The position numbers and the translations under genes are program-made. Source: DASVDK01 sp036562265 [NCBI: Thermodesulfobacteriota bacterium] (GTDB taxonomy: Bacteria; DASVDK01). From it: 5,598 bases of DNA. Below the pieces are notes generated by a model. The model was given only the letters and a program-made list of their open reading frames with translations. It ran no database searches and was not told the origin of the DNA. The stretch spans positions 1 through 5,598 of the forward strand of contig DATCKS010000237.1 in assembly GCA_036562265.1 (NCBI GenBank). Reading direction: 5' to 3'. This document shows, one piece after another, positions 1-5,598 of this stretch. Positions within the stretch are counted from its first letter, which is position 1. Every line of letters begins with the position of its first letter.

Positions 1-717
1 GAGCCGCCCCGCCTCGAGCCTGAGCTGCTCGAGCCGCGCCATGAGGGCGCGATCGCCGTCGAGCTCGGCGGGCGACTCGTAGCCGGTCTTGCCGACCGAC
101 TCGGCGGCCAGGATCATCATCGGCATCGCGTTGTCGATGCAGGACACCGGCACGCCGTCGATCACGTCGCGCACGCGGCCGGTCGGCAGGAGCGAGCCGG
201 TCACCGAGCCGACGGCGTCGAGGAAGGCGAGCTTGATCGGCGCCGCCGTGCCGGGCGCGCCGTCGATCGCCACGTCGCCGTCGTAGGTGACCCGGCCGCC
301 CGGCGTCTGGACGGTCGCCTCGACCAGGCTCTCCGTGTTGACGTTGTAGATGCGCAGCGTCGTCTCCGGGTCGCGGGCCGGCACCAGGCCCGCCTCGATG
401 GCGAACGGGCCGACGCCCGAGAGCATGTTGCCGCAGTTGGGGCTCGTGTCGACGAAGGCCCGGTCGATCGCGACCTGGGCGAAGAGGTAGTCGACGTCGG
501 CGCCCGGCCGCGTCGAGCGGCTCACGATGGCGACCTTGCTCGTCAGCGGGTTCGCCCCGCCGACCCCGTCCACCTGGAGCGGGTGGGGCGAGCCCATCGC
601 CGCGAGGAGCACGCGGTCGCGCGTCGGCACGTCGTCCGGCAGATCGGAGGCGAGGAAGTAGGGGCCGCGCGACGTCCCGCCGCGCATCAGCACGCAAGGA
701 ATTCGGGTCTGGGTCAT
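1..717 (-). CDS. galD: PrpF/GalD-family isomerase, 4-oxalomesaconate tautomerase-like (partial, C-terminus missing)
   Basis: The first 239 residues are visible; the gene runs off the left edge, and the family is usually about 360-390 residues. The N-terminus carries the family hallmark IPCVLMRGGTSRG (residues 6-18), followed by GVGGANPLTSKVAIV (51-65), NCGNMLSGVGPFAIE (94-108) and CIDNAMPM (193-200). This order and wording closely match what I remember of Pseudomonas GalD, which converts keto to enol 4-oxalomesaconate in gallate/protocatechuate 4,5-cleavage. PrpF, the aconitate isomerase of the 2-methylcitrate pathway, is a relative. The fold is diaminopimelate-epimerase-like and cytoplasmic. 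Lys61 and Cys95 are 34 residues apart, the same spacing as catalytic Lys73 and Cys107 of Shewanella PrpF, so the enzyme looks active. The ATG lies five bases after the permease stop, with GGAG at 728-731 ten bases upstream, so it is probably the next cistron of the importer operon. Family assignment is firm; the exact substrate (oxalomesaconate, aconitate or another unsaturated acid) is inferred. Confidence 0.88.
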   Translation of the reverse strand, partial: MTQTRIPCVLMRGGTSRGPYFLASDLPDDVPTRDRVLLAAMGSPHPLQVDGVGGANPLTSKVAIVSRSTRPGADVDYLFAQVAIDRAFVDTSPNCGNMLSGVGPFAIEAGLVPARDPETTLRIYNVNTESLVEATVQTPGGRVTYDGDVAIDGAPGTAAPIKLAFLDAVGSVTGSLLPTGRVRDVIDGVPVSCIDNAMPMMILAAESVGKTGYESPAELDGDRALMARLEQLRLEAGRL

Positions 718-722
718 GGTCG

Positions 723-1505
723 TTACGCTCCGCTCACCCGGTCGGGTTCCGCCCAGAAGACGACCCGCCGCTGGATCGCACGCATGAGGAGGTGCAGGGT
801 GATGCCGATCGCCCCGAGGACGACGAGGACGGCGAACATCCCCGCGATGTCGAGAGTGAAGTTGAGCTGCTGGATCCGGTAGCCGAGGCCCACCTGGGCG
901 CCCACGAACTCGCCGACGATCGCCCCGAGCACCGAGAAGACGATGCCGATGTTGAGGCCGGCGAAGAGGAAGGGGAGGGCGTTCGGCACCTTCACCTTCC
1001 AGAAGATCTGCCAGCGCGACGCGCACATGGCCCTGAGGAGGTCGAGCTCCTGCTGCCGCGTCGCGCCGAGCCCCTGGATGACGTTCACGAGGATCGGGAA
1101 GAAGACGATGACCGCCGAGACGACGACCTTCGAGGCGAGGCCGAAGCCGAACCAGATGACCAGGATGGGGGCGATGGCGATCTTGGGCACCGTCTGGATG
1201 CCGACCAGGTACGGGTAGACGGTCCGCTCGAGGAGCCGGAACTGCGCGATGAGGCCGCCCACCACGATGGCCGAGGCGGCGCCGATCGCGAAGCCCGCGA
1301 GCGTCTCGAAGAGCGTGACCTTGATGTCGGTCCAGAAGCTCGGCAGCGACAGGAGGCGCACCAGGGCGCGCGCCACCGCCGAGGGGGCCGGGATGACGAT
1401 GGGGGGGATGCCGAGCGCGCGCACGAGCAGCTCCCAGCTGCCCACCACGAGGACGAAGACGCCGGGGATCGTGTACGTCTCGGCGCGCCTGAGCCAGTCG
1501 CGCAT
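723..1505 (-). CDS. ABC transporter permease, SsuC/TauC/NrtB type
   Basis: A 260-residue inner-membrane permease of the nitrate/sulfonate/taurine (BPD_transp_1) family, the usual length. Hydrophobic segments lie at about residues 13-31, 68-88, 97-121, 125-147, 178-200 and 221-241, giving six transmembrane helices. The cytoplasmic coupling loop that docks on the ATPase is visible at about 155-178, ending VKVPNALPF, followed by the typical FAGLNIGIVFSVLGAIVGEF (182-201). In the EAA loop the usually conserved glycine is Cys161, the only cysteine in the protein. The ATG shares its A with the TGA stop of the ATPase gene (TGATG), indicating translational coupling. A GGAGGG at 1518-1523 lies 12 bases upstream, a rather long spacing. 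The reading frame stays open far upstream through the ATPase gene, but homology begins at this ATG. It works with the ATPase and binding protein encoded just upstream. Substrate not determinable. Confidence 0.93.
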   Translation of the reverse strand: MRDWLRRAETYTIPGVFVLVVGSWELLVRALGIPPIVIPAPSAVARALVRLLSLPSFWTDIKVTLFETLAGFAIGAASAIVVGGLIAQFRLLERTVYPYLVGIQTVPKIAIAPILVIWFGFGLASKVVVSAVIVFFPILVNVIQGLGATRQQELDLLRAMCASRWQIFWKVKVPNALPFLFAGLNIGIVFSVLGAIVGEFVGAQVGLGYRIQQLNFTLDIAGMFAVLVVLGAIGITLHLLMRAIQRRVVFWAEPDRVSGA

Positions 1506-2269
1506 CAGTCGATCGAGCCCTCCGCCTCGAACAGCGCCCGGATGCGGGCCGTCAGGGCGCCGAACTCCGGGCTCCCCATGACGGCGAGACCGCGCGGCCG
1601 GGGCAGCGGCACCCGCATCACGTCGACGATCCGTCCCGGCCGGGGCGACATGACGACCACGCGGTCGCCGAGGAAGACCGCCTCGGGGATCGAGTGGGTG
1701 ATGAAGAAGACGGTCTTCTTCCGCTCCTCCCAGATCCGCAAGAGCTCGACGTTCATCCGCTCGCGCGTCATGGCGTCGAGCGCCCCGAACGGTTCGTCCA
1801 TGAGGAGGATGCGCGGGTCGAGCACCAGGGCGCGCACGATGGCCGCCCGCTGCTGCATGCCGCCCGACAGCTCGTTCGGGTAGCGCCCCTCGAAGCCGGC
1901 GAGCCCGACCAGCGCGAGGAGGGCGAGCGCCCGCTCGCGATGCTCGGCCAGGCGGAGCTTCTGCACCTCGACCGGCAGGAGGACGTTCTCGAGGACCGTC
2001 CGCCAGGCGAGCAGCGTGGCGTCCTGGAAGACGATCCCGATGTCCCTGCGGGGCCCGTTCACCGGCTGGCCGGCGACGATCACCTCGCCGGCGCTCTTGG
2101 GGGAGAGGCCGGCCAGGATCTTGAGGAGCGTCGTCTTGCCGCAACCGGACGGGCCGACGACCGAGAGGAACTCCCCCTCGGCCACCTCGAGCGACACGCG
2201 GGCGAGCGCCTCGACCGTGCCGCCGTCACGCGTCCGGTAGGTCTTCTCGAGGTTGTGAATACGGATCAC
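1505..2269 (-). CDS. ABC transporter ATP-binding protein, SsuB/TauB/NrtD type
   Basis: A complete 254-residue nucleotide-binding subunit that powers the adjacent importer from the cytoplasmic face. All motifs are intact: Walker A GPSGCGKT (residues 39-46), Q-loop FQD (81-83, Gln82), ABC signature LSGGMQQR (134-141), Walker B ILLMDEP (154-160, catalytic Glu159), D-loop GALD (162-165) and H-loop His192. The wording around Walker B and the D-loop (MDEPFGALDAMTRERM) and the MSPRPGRI segment (207-213) is typical of the nitrate/taurine/sulfonate group. I chose the GTG at 2267-2269: it gives the expected N-terminus (IRIHNLEKTY), lies two bases after the binding-protein stop, and no start codon lies close upstream in frame. 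No good Shine-Dalgarno precedes it, so translation probably depends on coupling to the gene before. The stop overlaps the permease start by one base. The substrate follows from the binding protein, not from this subunit. Confidence 0.95.
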   Translation of the reverse strand: MIRIHNLEKTYRTRDGGTVEALARVSLEVAEGEFLSVVGPSGCGKTTLLKILAGLSPKSAGEVIVAGQPVNGPRRDIGIVFQDATLLAWRTVLENVLLPVEVQKLRLAEHRERALALLALVGLAGFEGRYPNELSGGMQQRAAIVRALVLDPRILLMDEPFGALDAMTRERMNVELLRIWEERKKTVFFITHSIPEAVFLGDRVVVMSPRPGRIVDVMRVPLPRPRGLAVMGSPEFGALTARIRALFEAEGSID

Positions 2270-2271
2270 GC

Positions 2272-3324
2272 CTAGTTCATGGCCCGGGCGCGGTCCTGGA
2301 TCGCCTTCACGTCGAACGACGCCGCCTCGCGGGGGAACCGGTCGTCGAAGTACTGGGCCACGTCGTTCCGCTGCGTCGTCATGCCGACGTCGAGCGCCAT
2401 CTCCTGGATGCCGAGCCACTCGTCGCGGACGAAGCGGCCGATCGGCTTCTGGTCGGTGTACGTGTAGTTGAGCCAGCCGAGGAGCGCCTGCACGTCCACC
2501 GGAAGCTGCGCCTCCACGTCCGCCGGCCGCGACTGCGGGTGGACCTCGTAGAAGATCCGCACCGCCGCCCGGGGGTTCGCCTTCGTGAAGACCAGCCCCT
2601 TCATCATCGCCCGGTTGAGGCCGATCACGACGTTCGGGTGCTTCGCCGCGAACTCGTCGGTCGTCGCCTGCACGAGGCTCGAGATCCGGTCCTCGAAGCC
2701 GGCGTGCATGTAGCGGAGCTTGGTCCCGGCCCCCTCGATGACCGCGTAGGCGCCGCCCCAGAGCCCGAGGGCGTCGACCTGCCCCGTCGTGAGGGCGGTG
2801 GCCGCGCGGGCGCCGGTGCCGGCCGCGACGAGCTTCATGTCCTTGTCGACGTCGAAGCCCATCGCCTTGTAGACCTGCCGGACGTAGGGGACCGCGCCCG
2901 ACGCGAGGCTCGGCACGCCGATGGTCTTGCCCTTGAGGTCCTTCGTGCTCTTGATCGGGCTGTCGGGGAGCACGGCGATGCTGTACGGCCAGACCCGCTG
3001 GAGGTTCAGGACGGCCTTCACCTTGACCCCCTTGTCGCGGGCGGCGATGAGGCTCGTCTTGTCGGAGTGGGCGAACTGCGCGGTCCCGGAGGCGAGCACC
3101 TGGAGCGCCGCCGCCGAGCCGGCCGCCCACTGGAACTCGACCTCGAGCCCCTCCTCGGCGAACCACCCCATCTTCTGCGGCACCGCCCAGAGCGGGACCT
3201 CCTCGGTCGGCGCCACCTGGGCGTGCGCGAACACGACGACCACCTTCTGCTTCCCCTGCGCGAGGCTCGGGGTCGAACCGGCGGCGAGGAGGGCGAGGAC
3301 GAGGACCGTAACCCGTGCGAGCAT
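2272..3324 (-). CDS. ABC transporter substrate-binding protein, NMT1/THI5/SsuA-like
   Basis: A 350-residue periplasmic binding protein that supplies substrate to the permease/ATPase pair. It has a Sec-type signal peptide with a hydrophobic core at about residues 5-16 and a likely cleavage after SLA (20-22). There is no lipobox cysteine and no cysteine elsewhere, so it should be soluble in a Gram-negative periplasm. The mature part follows the SsuA/NMT1 pattern: PLWAVPQKMGWFAEEGLEVEF (44-64, the family's xAxxxGyFxxeGLdVe motif), ASGTAQFAHSDKTSLIAARDKG (78-99), then DLKGKTIGVPSLASGA (129-144) at the start of the second lobe. A later TGQVDALGLWGGAYAV (180-195) is also typical. The ATG is well supported by GGAGG six bases upstream. 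It is the first gene of the importer set, two bases ahead of the ATPase. The family binds nitrate, sulfonates, taurine, pyrimidine precursors and aromatic acids. Pairing with a GalD/PrpF-like enzyme suggests an organic acid, but this is inference. Confidence 0.92.
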   Translation of the reverse strand: MLARVTVLVLALLAAGSTPSLAQGKQKVVVVFAHAQVAPTEEVPLWAVPQKMGWFAEEGLEVEFQWAAGSAAALQVLASGTAQFAHSDKTSLIAARDKGVKVKAVLNLQRVWPYSIAVLPDSPIKSTKDLKGKTIGVPSLASGAVPYVRQVYKAMGFDVDKDMKLVAAGTGARAATALTTGQVDALGLWGGAYAVIEGAGTKLRYMHAGFEDRISSLVQATTDEFAAKHPNVVIGLNRAMMKGLVFTKANPRAAVRIFYEVHPQSRPADVEAQLPVDVQALLGWLNYTYTDQKPIGRFVRDEWLGIQEMALDVGMTTQRNDVAQYFDDRFPREAASFDVKAIQDRARAMN

Positions 3325-3330
3325 CGTGCG

Positions 3331-3335
3331 CCTCC
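3331..3335 (-). promoter_or_regulatory. Ribosome binding site of the binding-protein gene
   Basis: GGAGG on the minus strand, separated by six bases from the ATG at 3324. It is the best-placed Shine-Dalgarno in the window and fixes the start of the binding-protein gene. It suggests that this gene is translated independently and strongly, as is usual for binding proteins, while the downstream ATPase and permease rely on overlap or close spacing. Confidence 0.75.
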
Positions 3336-3355
3336 GTCGGTGAGGTCGAGCCGTC

Positions 3356-3384
3356 GTTATATTAACCGATCGGGGAGGGGTCGG
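3356..3384 (-). promoter_or_regulatory. Candidate promoter ahead of the binding-protein gene
   Basis: The minus strand reads TATAAC at 3361-3356, within an AT-only run (TTAATATAA) that stands out in a very GC-rich region. Seventeen bases upstream, at 3384-3379, lies CCGACC, which keeps the GAC core of a sigma70 -35 box but is otherwise poor. The patch falls in the 64-base gap before the importer genes, where an internal promoter would make sense. An 8-base palindrome CCGATCGG (3366-3373) sits between the two boxes and could be an operator half or chance. The -10 match is reasonable, the -35 match weak. Confidence 0.3.
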
Positions 3385-3388
3385 CCGG

Positions 3389-4204
3389 TCAGTCTTCGAG
3401 GAGCGGCGCCCGATCGAGGCCGTAGGCCCGACGGGCCGCCTCGACGAGCCGCTCGGGCGGGCGGCTATAGGCGAAGCCTCGCCGGGTGACCGAGACGCCC
3501 GACTCGGCCCGCATCTCGGCGAGCGTCCGGGCGGTCTTGATCACGGCGGCCACCGGGTCGACGACCGGCGCCTCGTCCACCCGGCTGACGCCGTTCTGGA
3601 AGAGCACCTCGGCCATGATCGTCTGCCCGGGCAGGATCACGTCCGCCCCCCGGCGCACCGCTTCGCGCGCCGCGGCGAGGAACGCGTCGACGAGCGGCCC
3701 CGGCCGCTCGAAGGCGTCGACCACGTCCCGGTAGTCGACCGTCATCGGCACCATCGCCGCGATTCGCCCCTCGAGGCCGGTCCGATGCGCCGCCGCCCGG
3801 ATGGGGTGGAAGATGTCGGGGTTGAAGGCCACGACGCCGAACCGCTCACCGAGCAGGCAGGCCAGGTGCATGGCCGATTCCCCGTACCCGGCGACCGGGA
3901 TGTCGACGACCGACCGGGCGAGGGCGACGCCGATGTCCTGGATGATGGCGATGGCGACGGCGTCGTACCCTTCGCGCTCGGCGCGCCGGGCGGCCTCGAC
4001 CACCTGCTGCTCGTGCAGGGCGGTGAGGTAGGCGTGGCGCGCCAGGTCGGCCGGGGAGGCGTCGGGCGTGTAGGTGCCCGGCCTGAGGCCGTGGATCACC
4101 ACCTCGACGCCGGGGCCGGCCACCCGCGCGAGGTGGCGCGCGAGCGCCTCGCCGTAGGCCGGCACCGTCTGCATCTCGATGAAGCCCTGATGCCAGATGC
4201 GCAC
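3389..4204 (-). CDS. Asp/Glu/hydantoin racemase superfamily protein lacking both catalytic cysteines
   Basis: A 271-residue protein, slightly longer than typical hydantoin racemases (about 220-250). It begins RIWHQGF and shows the superfamily's two-lobe pattern: GYDAVAIAIIQDIGVALARSVVDIPV (79-104), GYGESAMHLACLLGERFGVV (107-125), then ADVILPGQTIMAEV (187-200) and APVVDPVAAVIKTA (212-225). Known members (hydantoin and Asp/Glu racemase, maleate isomerase, arylmalonate decarboxylase) use one or two active-site cysteines, in ACFDDPG-like and LGCAGM-like motifs. Here the aligned positions are Ile87 and Gln194. The only cysteine, Cys116, lies in the predicted helix after GES. Racemisation is therefore doubtful; a lyase, isomerase or binding role is possible. 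The start is GTG at 4202-4204: an in-frame TAG lies just upstream, and the next candidate (ATG, residue 11) would remove conserved sequence. No strong Shine-Dalgarno is visible. The gene lies 64 bases before the importer and in the same direction, so a shared role is plausible. Confidence 0.82.
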   Translation of the reverse strand: MRIWHQGFIEMQTVPAYGEALARHLARVAGPGVEVVIHGLRPGTYTPDASPADLARHAYLTALHEQQVVEAARRAEREGYDAVAIAIIQDIGVALARSVVDIPVAGYGESAMHLACLLGERFGVVAFNPDIFHPIRAAAHRTGLEGRIAAMVPMTVDYRDVVDAFERPGPLVDAFLAAAREAVRRGADVILPGQTIMAEVLFQNGVSRVDEAPVVDPVAAVIKTARTLAEMRAESGVSVTRRGFAYSRPPERLVEAARRAYGLDRAPLLED

Positions 4205-4248
4205 CCCGAGAGCCTAGAGCCGCGGTGCGCGATCTTCAAGCGCCGGCG

Positions 4249-4268
4249 CGCGAGCGCCCGCGCTCGCG
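4249..4268. repeat. GC-rich inverted repeat between the oligopeptide permease and racemase-like genes
   Basis: CGCGAGCG at 4249-4256 and CGCTCGCG at 4261-4268 are perfect inverted repeats (8-bp stem, 4-base loop) in the 71-bp gap. A second palindrome, GCGCCGGCGC, covers 4240-4249. Neither is followed by a T-run on the minus strand, so this is not a canonical Rho-independent terminator. It may still be a 3'-end stabilising or pausing hairpin after the permease operon. In sequence this GC-rich, short palindromes arise by chance. Confidence 0.4.
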
Positions 4269-4275
4269 TCGTCCT

Positions 4276-5106
4276 TCAGGATCGACCGGGCGCGCCGGTG
4301 CCGCCCCGGGTCCTCGGGTCGAGGAGGTCGCGCAGGCCGTCCCCCAGGAGGTTGAAGCCGAGGACGGCCAGGGCGATGGCGAGGCCGGGAAAGAGGGTGG
4401 GCCAGGGGGAGAGGGCGAGGAAGGTCTGCGCCTCGCGCAGCATCCGGCCCCAGCTCGCCGCGGGGGGCTGCGTGCCGAGGCCGAGGTAGGAGAGGGCGGC
4501 CTCGGCGAGGATCGCCGTGGCGAGCGCCGCCGTGGCGAGGACGAGGAGCGGCGGGGCGAGGTTCGGCACGACGTGCCGCACGACGAGGCGGGCGGGCGAG
4601 ACGCCGAGGGCCCGCGCGCTCTCGACGTACTCCCGGCCGCGCTGCTCGATGGCGCTCGCCCGGGCGAGGCGGGCGAAGGCCGGCACCGAGGCGAGCCCGA
4701 TGGCGAGCACCGCGGCCATCCCGCCCGGCCCCAGCACCGTCGCGAGGAGCAGCGCCAGGAGGACCGCCGGCAGCGCGGCCAGCGCCTCCACGGGGCGCAT
4801 CAGGATCTCGTCGAGCCAGCCGCCGCGCCACCCGGCGGCGACGCCGACGAGGGCGCCTACGCCGAGGCCGATGGCGACCGCCGCGCCGCCGATCGCCACG
4901 GCGCTGCCGGCGCCGACCATGATGCGCGACAGGAGGTCGCGGCCGAAGTGGTCGGCCCCGAGCGGGTGGGCCGCGGAGGGGGGCGCGAGGCGCACGGCGA
5001 AGTCGGGCCGGTCGGGGTCGTAGGGGGTCCAGAGGCGGCCGGCCGCGGCCGCGAGGAGGATGACGGCGACGAGGACGAGGCCGCCCTGGAGCGCGGGGCG
5101 CCTCAT
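4276..5106 (-). CDS. Oligopeptide/dipeptide/nickel-type ABC transporter permease, DppC/OppC family
   Basis: A complete 276-residue inner-membrane permease of the family that imports peptides, nickel, opines or sugars, close to the usual 270-300. The N-terminal cytoplasmic stretch is short, with a first hydrophobic segment at about residues 8-26. The periplasmic hallmark HPLGADHFGRDLLSRI (47-62) is the classic DppC signature. Further transmembrane segments lie at about 67-92, 108-125, 128-146, 187-210 and 238-258. The EAA loop is intact (EYVESARALGVSPARL, 159-174, ending HVVPN). AEAALSYLGLGTQPPAASWG (201-220) and GFNLLGDGLRDLLDPR (250-265) are family-typical. The ATG overlaps the upstream permease stop (ATGA), which fixes the start in the absence of a Shine-Dalgarno. 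It pairs with that permease as the heterodimeric channel. No ATPase genes follow; they would have to lie upstream of the window or elsewhere. Substrate unknown. Confidence 0.95.
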   Translation of the reverse strand: MRRPALQGGLVLVAVILLAAAAGRLWTPYDPDRPDFAVRLAPPSAAHPLGADHFGRDLLSRIMVGAGSAVAIGGAAVAIGLGVGALVGVAAGWRGGWLDEILMRPVEALAALPAVLLALLLATVLGPGGMAAVLAIGLASVPAFARLARASAIEQRGREYVESARALGVSPARLVVRHVVPNLAPPLLVLATAALATAILAEAALSYLGLGTQPPAASWGRMLREAQTFLALSPWPTLFPGLAIALAVLGFNLLGDGLRDLLDPRTRGGTGAPGRS

Positions 5107-5598
5107 GACCGGGCCCTGGGATCGAGCCAGCCGTAGAGGAGGTCGATCACGAGGTTCACGGCGACGATGACGGCGGCCAGGGCGAGGACGATCCCCTGCA
5201 CGAGGGGAAAGTCGCGCGCCTCGACGGCGGTGAGCGCGAGCCGCCCCATGGCCGGTAGCGCGAAGACGCTCTCGACGATGATCGCGCCGGCCAGGAGTTG
5301 CCCGAAGAGGCTCCCGGCCACCGTCACGATGGCGAGGAGCGCGGCCCTTAAGGCGTGGCGGATCAGGACGGCCCGCTCCGGCAGCCCCTTGGCCCGCGCC
5401 GTCCGGACGAAGTCCTGGCCGAGGACCTCGAGGAGCGACGCGCGCACGACGCGCGTGAGGATGGCCGCCTGCCCGAGCCCCAGGGCGAGCACCGGCAACA
5501 CGAGCGACCGGAGCGCGCCGACGGGACTCTCGCTCCAGCGGACGAACCCGGTCGTCGGCAGCCACCCGAGCCCCACGCCGAATACGAGGATGAGGAGC
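5103..5598 (-). CDS. Oligopeptide/dipeptide/nickel-type ABC transporter permease, DppB/OppB family (partial, N-terminus missing)
   Basis: Only the C-terminal 164 residues are visible; the gene enters from the right edge, and full-length members have about 310-330. The visible part starts LLILVFGVGLGWLPTTGF, matching the middle of DppB, so the GTG at 5574-5576 within it is an internal valine rather than a start. The EAA coupling loop is clear (DFVRTARAKGLPERAV, fragment residues 62-77, followed by HALRAAL). Next come AGAIIVESVFALPAMGRL (103-120), ARDFPLVQG (127-135) and the closing helix ending DLLYGWLDPR (152-161), all diagnostic of the family. Its TGA overlaps the ATG of the DppC-type gene by four bases, the usual arrangement for these co-translated partner subunits. 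Substrate cannot be assigned. Confidence 0.93.
   Translation of the reverse strand, partial: LLILVFGVGLGWLPTTGFVRWSESPVGALRSLVLPVLALGLGQAAILTRVVRASLLEVLGQDFVRTARAKGLPERAVLIRHALRAALLAIVTVAGSLFGQLLAGAIIVESVFALPAMGRLALTAVEARDFPLVQGIVLALAAVIVAVNLVIDLLYGWLDPRARS

Follow-up and report, generated by a model that had tools for sequence, protein, structure and literature searches.

Maleate cis-trans isomerase, which uses two cysteines, shares the PF01177 (Asp_Glu_race) fold with arylmalonate decarboxylase (AMDase) and with the allantoin and hydantoin racemases. In the allantoin racemase KpAllR (3QVJ) the catalytic cysteines are Cys79 and Cys184 and the substrate is bound by Thr118 and Thr119, and a 2025 structural paper states the two catalytic cysteines to be conserved across the superfamily (PMC12661438). 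The same paper records that replacement of the site-2 cysteine of OpaE by serine nearly abolishes activity (PMC12661438). AMDase has no full cysteine pair: its dioxyanion hole consists of Thr75, Ser76, Tyr126 and Gly189, and Cys188 is the sole proton donor (PMC4996985).

The window, that is the whole stretch of DNA analysed (5,598 nucleotides), holds a gene for a protein of this fold, P0001, with no cysteine at either of the two positions. Judged from the alignments collected here, the gene is part of a large and so far overlooked branch of a bacterial racemase family, one in which both catalytic cysteines are gone and other residues are fixed instead. Those of its proteins that are named racemases probably have another role, for which the breakdown of small organic acids is the likeliest setting.

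The gene and its two active-site positions

The gene and the codons that matter for its active site are given below, where PGQ is the clade of eight proteins, including the query P0001, that is described in the next section.

3389-4204, minus strand: racemase-fold gene P0001, cysteine-less at both sites, 271 aa (open reading frame and translation, PF01177, AlphaFold2 model, fold comparison)
3944-3946, minus strand: codon of Ile87, site 1, the KpAllR Cys79 position (pairwise, profile and multiple alignments)
3938-3940, minus strand: codon of Gln89, which motif spacing aligns with Ser76 of the AMDase dioxyanion hole (AMDase motif tables); Gln in 8/8 of the PGQ clade
3857-3859, minus strand: codon of Cys116, within helix 107-118 (DSSP on the model); Cys in 6/8 PGQ members
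3824-3829, minus strand: codons of Phe127-Ala126, opposite Thr119-Thr118 of KpAllR, which bind the substrate (alignment); Ala126 in 8/8 and Phe127 in 7/8
3821-3823, minus strand: codon of Asn128, which motif spacing tentatively aligns with AMDase Tyr126 (motif tables); Asn in 7/8, Gln in 1/8
3623-3625, minus strand: codon of Gln194, site 2, the KpAllR Cys184 position (alignments); Gln in 8/8 of the PGQ clade
3608-3610, minus strand: codon of Glu199, fixed in 8/8 of the PGQ clade

The reading frame starts with GTG and has no internal stops, and its GC content by codon position (0.78/0.49/0.95) indicates a real gene. The protein matches the PF01177 profile at 2.5e-21 and 76.9 bits against a cut-off of 31, which bears out the superfamily membership that an earlier sequence-only reading had proposed and for which it had called for a profile search. 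Besides PF01177, the Pfam scan of P0001 gave no domain above its own cut-off, the NCBIfam scan only one sub-threshold chance match and the PHROGs scan no match. Scans of window positions 3200-4400 found neither promoter nor terminator, and a search of plasmid records with the whole window matched 1600 of them, none across more than 80% of the window.

The AlphaFold2 model of P0001, built with 59 relatives, has a mean pLDDT of 94.1. Its best match among solved structures is the allantoin racemase 5LFD (Z 25.9 over 233 residues, 2.2 A), followed by the allantoin racemase 3QVJ (25.6), OpaE (9QBX, 22.6) and the Pyrococcus hydantoin racemase (21.9), with far lower scores for aspartate racemase (16.2), AMDase (15.7) and maleate isomerase (14.0). 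By profile and model, P0001 is a PF01177 member with a predicted two-domain, pseudo-symmetric racemase fold.

The sequence-only reading had held that both catalytic cysteine positions are replaced, within the segments AIIQDIG and PGQTIM, and three kinds of alignment agree on this. In the phmmer alignment to the Klebsiella allantoin racemase 3qvj, which has both cysteines, Ile87 lies opposite the first and Gln194 opposite the second; profile-profile alignment of the PGQ clade with four two-cysteine relatives (99.8% probability) gives the same pairing, as does the multiple alignment. According to DSSP on the model, strand 82-86 ends just before Ile87, and Gln194 stands two residues beyond the end of strand 189-192, a predicted placement that is as expected for a racemase active site. 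Of the structural check that the sequence-only reading had suggested, the fold comparison was carried out, with the allantoin racemases best, and the pairing of the two sites comes from sequence alignment. The substrate-binding Thr118 and Thr119 of KpAllR are Ala126 and Phe127 in the query, and the ligand probably differs for that reason.

The PGQ clade and the wider clan

The PGQ clade is defined by Gln89 and Gln194, no cysteine at either site and a position on one branch of the tree; its eight members are the query, L016, L094, L102, L103, L104, L105 and L144. In the maximum-likelihood tree of 61 author-chosen rows, the seven members known at the time form a single branch (support 100/94), while L144 was found later, stands outside the tree and joins the clade by sequence. 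The seven relatives come from Chloroflexota and Rokubacteria and are 29-53% identical to the query. The closest, at 53-54% by BLAST, turned up when genomes related to two from Rokubacteria and one from Chloroflexota were searched, and a further relative is at 44%.

Both site 2 and position 89 are Gln in all eight members, and the polar residues invariant throughout are Q6, Y17, Q89, D101, Y107, Q194, E199 and D216, with Glu109 kept in seven and Gln in one. Site 1 reads I/I/S/I/T/I/M/V across the eight. The earlier proposal of a subfamily with replaced cysteines is thus matched by a clade in which no member has cysteine at either site, so that its own caveat, homologues keeping both cysteines, applies to 0/8; its question whether Ile87 and Gln194 are conserved is answered in the affirmative for Gln194 only, and a functionally fixed Ile87 is ruled out by the drift of site 1 inside the clade. 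The invariant polar residues argue for a retained specific function, and the loss of both thiols in the clade is, as far as the aligned sequences indicate, old and inherited, with specific other residues held. For the related pair L102 and L104, a dN of 0.060 against a dS of 0.340 points to purifying selection.

PGQ-type genes are rare in the genomes searched. Matches were found in 3/95 genomes of the phylum of genome G002 (E 1e-40, mostly of PGE type), in 3/245 of the class of G003, in 4/44 of the family of G227, in 1/29 of the class of G488 and in 2/400 Chloroflexota, the phylum of G003 (E 1e-30).

Cysteine loss reaches well beyond P0001 and, to judge from these sequences, is a clade property and not a private mutation. 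A relative of P0001 was found in 51 plasmid records, the best at 42% identity. When 11 genes from 10 of the best-matching records were aligned with the query, 12/12 lacked both cysteines; 11 genes from ten lower-ranked records had both cysteines in four cases, one in one and none in six. Ten of the 12 clan genes read in plasmid records are annotated 'aspartate/glutamate racemase family protein', and the records of the remaining two have no gene table. One clan member so annotated, WP_162571800.1 of Variovorax sp. SRS16, is 40% identical to the query and has Thr and Glu at the two sites; it differs from the query at site 2, where Glu replaces Gln, and at position 89, which is Pro.

Scanning the species-genome collection with P0001 alone as seed gave no match; a four-protein seed yielded 328 relatives, and the analysis went on with the best 80 loci. 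The four seed proteins are themselves without the cysteines, and although two search peptides exclude both sites, ranking by likeness favours cysteine-less relatives. In these best 80 of 328 loci and the query, site 1 is Thr in 58 rows, Ser in 20, Ile in two and Cys in one, and site 2 is Glu in 74, Ser in three, Gln in two, Asp in one and Gly in one. The PGE group is the sister clade of the PGQ proteins, with Glu at site 2 in 76/80 rows. In a tally of 107 clan rows, which includes near-copies and leaves out 24 rows judged to be copies or outside the clan, 105 have no cysteine at either site, one has both (L097) and one has a single cysteine (L038, Cys/Asp); one of those left out, L139 (Cys/Ser), shows a weak grouping with two of the counted rows, and its inclusion would make this 105/108 with none, two with one and one with both. 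Thr or Ser with Glu accounts for 78 rows, His/Gly for eight (support 100/100), and Gly/Phe and Ser/Gly for two each, and an N-terminal RI-W-x-Q motif is present in most members.

As a yardstick, five genomes with clan members hold 24 PF01177 matches. Thirteen of these are clan members, 12 of them without both cysteines, and among the 11 outside the clan nine have both cysteines, L106 has the second only and one is a fragment with the first site unaligned. No activity or ligand is, to our knowledge, known for any clan member found. A search of open-licence PMC papers returned no description of a cysteine-less PF01177 clan, and one may exist in other literature.

Several members of the family stand apart. 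The rokubacterial L097 (1501-2268; G002:C190:5887-6654, minus strand) has both cysteines (NCWDDPG / PACGVL) while nested among cysteine-less subclades, and is a natural reference for the timing of cysteine loss or regain. In two rokubacterial genomes a Gly/Phe and a Ser/Gly clan gene lie side by side (G001:C178:3875-5429, L095/L098; G002:C55:14079-15548, L100/L127), and such pairs may act jointly or form a hetero-oligomer; the matched stretch of L095 contains one in-frame TAG. L131, L133 (two tandem genes) and L136 form a separate PF01177 lineage with Ser/Ser, Thr/Ser and Asp/Gln at the sites and, in one of the loci, MmgE/PrpD and flavoprotein genes; this is perhaps an independent cysteine loss. 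The His/Gly subclade (L003, L008, L009, L138) has organic hydroperoxide resistance proteins in its loci, some of which also have a gene with the annotation cyclase family protein or 3-hydroxyanthranilate 3,4-dioxygenase, and its pathway perhaps differs from those of the PGQ and PGE clades.

Neighbouring genes in the window and around relatives

Seven genes were read in the window, all on the minus strand, and the six that accompany P0001 are as follows.

5103-5576 and on, minus strand: Dpp/Opp-type permease, partial
4276-5103, minus strand: second Dpp/Opp-type permease
2272-3324, minus strand: NMT1-type solute-binding protein
1505-2269, minus strand: ABC ATPase
723-1505, minus strand: ABC permease (Pfam BPD_transp_1)
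1-717, minus strand: PrpF-family gene, truncated by the window end, with 4-oxalomesaconate tautomerase as the closest NCBIfam model

The PrpF-family gene scores 380.8 bits over 230/349 model positions, below the cut-off of 440, and it belongs to the world of carboxylate isomerases. In a search for shared operons in other loci (E 1e-15, 40% coverage), relatives of the window's PrpF were found in none of the loci compared; those of the NMT1-type binding protein occur in L048 and L066 and those of the permease in L066 and L051, that is in three loci of L011-L090. None of the PGQ loci has a relative of any of these three, and the window has neither a CoA-transferase nor an MmgE/PrpD gene, unlike the loci of the PGQ relatives. 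No conserved operon around the window gene was found in this comparison, and its neighbours are hardly shared with other loci; the window's own neighbours nevertheless fit the carboxylate reading. L066 is the only locus with both relatives: its stretch 8001-9994 holds an alphaproteobacterial clan member (Thr/Gly) and, as the very next gene, an NMT1-type binding protein that shares 30% identity with that of the window, and the relative of the window permease lies ~4 kb upstream.

The neighbours of relatives are carboxylate genes, with FAD_binding_2 flavoproteins, MmgE/PrpD proteins, family III CoA-transferases and tripartite tricarboxylate (TTT) or TRAP transporters among them. Neighbouring genes in the 80 loci (17 kb at most) were called with a home-made caller based on amino-acid composition, which fused two genes annotated separately in L001, so that the neighbour counts and overlaps are approximate, and each neighbour cluster is named after one Pfam-tested representative. 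The 80 loci are mutually related and were dereplicated at 70% identity to 27. FAD_binding_2 flavoproteins lie at most six genes away in 60/80 loci (15/27 after dereplication), and in the 27 they make up 14/53 immediate neighbours against 4/83 genes at offsets 5-6. One representative is closest to the tricarballylate dehydrogenase TcuA (348 bits, cut-off 369) and another reaches the flavocytochrome c cut-off. This link is a feature of the PGE clade, seen among PGQ loci only in L140. The other clusters, with dereplicated counts in brackets, are SDR proteins in 43/80 loci (8/27), the tripartite tricarboxylate receptor in 35/80 (10/27), isochorismatase in 26/80 (3/27), ETF in 18/80 (5/27) with its second subunit in 13/80 (4/27), methylisocitrate-lyase-like proteins in 15/80 (4/27) and MmgE/PrpD in 9/80 (2/27), the raw counts shrinking upon dereplication, for example those of isochorismatase and MmgE/PrpD. 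Isochorismatase-family hydrolases, found in some clan loci, are of the family that includes maleamate amidase, an enzyme of nicotinate breakdown.

Around the PGQ genes, a family III CoA-transferase gene overlaps or abuts the PGQ gene in 4/8 loci (by 4 bp in L143 and L104 and 11 bp in L141, and abutting in L142, with the gene starts assigned here), and an MmgE/PrpD gene lies within a few genes in 5/8. The CoA-transferase neighbours come from one Chloroflexota family only (match in 4/44 genomes) and are therefore not independent. The NCBIfam models nearest to one transferase are succinate-glutarate, oxalate and succinyl-CoA:mesaconate CoA-transferases, all far below cut-off, and neither a CoA-transferase nor MmgE/PrpD was found in the L016 and L145 loci. 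TAXI/TRAP transporter genes adjoin the PGQ gene or lie one gene off in 2/8 loci: in L140 the PGQ gene comes after genes for a TAXI-family binding protein and an NADH:flavin oxidoreductase and overlaps a TRAP permease by one base, and in L145 the PGQ gene directly follows a TAXI-family binding protein gene. A partnership of a comparable kind is described for the itaconate/methylsuccinate cluster of Cupriavidus and Pseudomonas, in which the MmgE/PrpD protein isomerises methylsuccinate and cooperates with a CoA-transferase (PMC12290011).

L141, L142 and L143, from one Chloroflexota family, have in common a block with a two-domain family III CoA-transferase, the PGQ gene, MmgE/PrpD, an enoyl-CoA hydratase and a luciferase-like monooxygenase. 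In L016 (5180-11969, Chloroflexi) the PGQ gene is flanked by methylmalonyl-CoA mutase and biotin-dependent acyl-CoA carboxylase genes.

Possible function and comparison with known enzymes

On the reading tentatively favoured here, P0001 may be a cofactor-free isomerase or lyase for di- or tricarboxylates or their CoA esters. Built on the allantoin/hydantoin racemase type of the Asp/Glu racemase fold, the enzyme would have given up the cysteine pair that removes and returns a proton at a single carbon. The cleft between the two pseudo-symmetric domains would bind a small di- or tricarboxylate or a CoA ester of one, and the amides of Gln89, Asn128 and Gln194, in place of thiols, could stabilise an enediolate-like state in the manner of the AMDase dioxyanion hole. 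The residue roles rest on alignment and on motif spacing, which places I88, Q89 and T195 at AMDase T75, S76 and G189 and, less securely, N128 at Y126, and thereby puts amide side chains at 89, 128 and 194 where the carboxylate and the thiol would sit. The reaction would most likely be a cysteine-independent isomerisation or lyase step, for which a fixed acid (Glu199, Asp216 or, except in the one member with Gln, Glu109) or water may be the acid/base; in the PGE sister clade, Glu194 itself could be the single acid/base. The simplest reading would be a carboxylate pocket without a thiol acid/base, which fits the carboxylate neighbours of the relatives. Against the isomerase or lyase reading counts the fixed Gln194: Gln is a poor acid/base, so that the chemistry would lie elsewhere or be absent. 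A more specific proposal is somewhat unlikely as a whole, namely that PGQ and the wider clan are a separate racemase-fold enzyme family with an anion pocket of Gln89, Asn128 and Gln194, no acid/base at the canonical positions and, as substrate, a branched di- or tricarboxylate or CoA ester that the partner CoA-transferase and MmgE/PrpD also handle.

It is conceivable, if unlikely, that P0001 is instead a non-catalytic ligand-binding protein (a sensor, chaperone or scaffold) that no longer catalyses a reaction but still uses the racemase cleft to hold a carboxylate. Such a protein could have non-acidic residues at both acid/base positions, as the PGQ clade does, a freely drifting site 1 (I/S/T/M/V) and a conserved pocket region, and the window gene does sit between parts of two uptake systems. 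However, Gln89, Gln194, Glu199 and Asp216 are fixed in 8/8 PGQ proteins, the mostly Glu-bearing site 2 of the sister clade (76/80 rows) resembles an active acid/base more closely, in 4/8 loci the gene abuts a CoA-transferase gene or overlaps it, and P0001 has no further Pfam domain above cut-off. A racemase or epimerase that still works, with non-cysteine acid/base groups such as Glu109, Glu199 or Asp216 replacing the thiols, would suit the fixed acids of the PGQ clade, a fold closest to the allantoin racemases (Z 25.9, with aspartate racemase at 16.2 and AMDase at 15.7) and the fact that MmgE/PrpD proteins, neighbours of some clan members, include a chiral-acid isomerase. This is quite improbable, given that Glu109 and Asp216 are each kept in 5/6 outgroup rows with at least one cysteine and so are not new bases, that Glu109 is Gln in one PGQ member, that the allantoin-binding Thr pair is gone and that the Cys-to-Ser change at site 2 of OpaE nearly abolishes activity (PMC12661438).

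The remaining two alternatives were raised as counter-arguments by the sequence-only reading. A relocated nucleophile, with Cys116 of helix 107-118 doing the chemistry, is rejected as very improbable: the residue is Cys in 6/8 PGQ members, including the query, but Ser and Gln in the other two, and in the best 80 of 328 loci with the query it is Cys in only 55/81 rows. That the gene is an ordinary racemase with a one-off mutation, a pseudogene or a sequence error might be thought from its being a single window sequence without a whole genome behind it. This is scarcely credible and is likewise rejected, since the seven relatives from Chloroflexota and Rokubacteria also lack both cysteines and all have Gln at site 2, and the intact reading frame, the strong codon-position GC, the confident model (pLDDT 94.1) and the dN and dS of L102/L104 uphold the earlier view that this is not pseudogene decay.

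The 2025 paper states superfamily-wide cysteines (PMC12661438), and the broad clan is nearly always without them among the rows collected, with the annotated ones still placed in the racemase family. Should the clan indeed be a separate enzyme family, its 'racemases' would be lyases or isomerases of an undescribed pathway. If the carboxylate reading is right, inferences of D-amino-acid or hydantoin metabolism drawn from clan matches would be wrong, and the genes would point to an uncharted small-polycarboxylate route in soil and aquatic bacteria, a question made testable by the named partner genes. Were they binders only, they would still show clearly how the active site of an old fold can be turned over.

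Among the known systems, the allantoin/hydantoin racemases (KpAllR 3QVJ, PfAllR 5LFD/5LG5, OpaE 9QBX) are PF01177 proteins with the closest folds and the same strand-loop positions for the two sites, and they differ from the query in residues. Cys79 and Cys184 of KpAllR are Ile87 and Gln194, and the Thr118/Thr119 pair is Ala126/Phe127; in the allantoin/hydantoin racemase group, Thr/Ser118 is found in 84.2%, Thr119 in 55.6% and Asn/Asp12 in 100% (PMC12661438). The corresponding N-terminal loop of the query (Asn/Asp12 region) is unaligned by phmmer and gapped in the multiple alignment, and the query has an extra loop near residues 44-50, of which columns 44, 45, 47 and 50 are gapped in at least five of six outgroup rows. 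PfAllR (5lfd) has Gly at site 1 in the profile alignment, so that single-cysteine members exist outside AMDase and Cys at site 1 is not universal; members without either cysteine are the unusual case.

Maleate cis-trans isomerase shares the PF01177 fold (Z 14.0) and a carboxylate context with the query, and its structure entries are titled C194S with succinylcysteine and C200A; it has cysteines at both sites, where the query has Ile87 and Gln194. AMDase likewise shares the fold (Z 15.7) and resembles the query in having an anion hole and no full cysteine pair, but differs in the residues concerned. Its proton donor Cys188 corresponds to Gln194 (by the DALLISCGxL spacing and the site-2 alignments), Gly74-Thr75-Ser76 and Gly189 correspond to Ile87-Ile88-Gln89 and Thr195 by the spacing of the printed motifs, and Tyr126 may correspond to Asn128 by the spacing of RVAVxTAY, a short motif.
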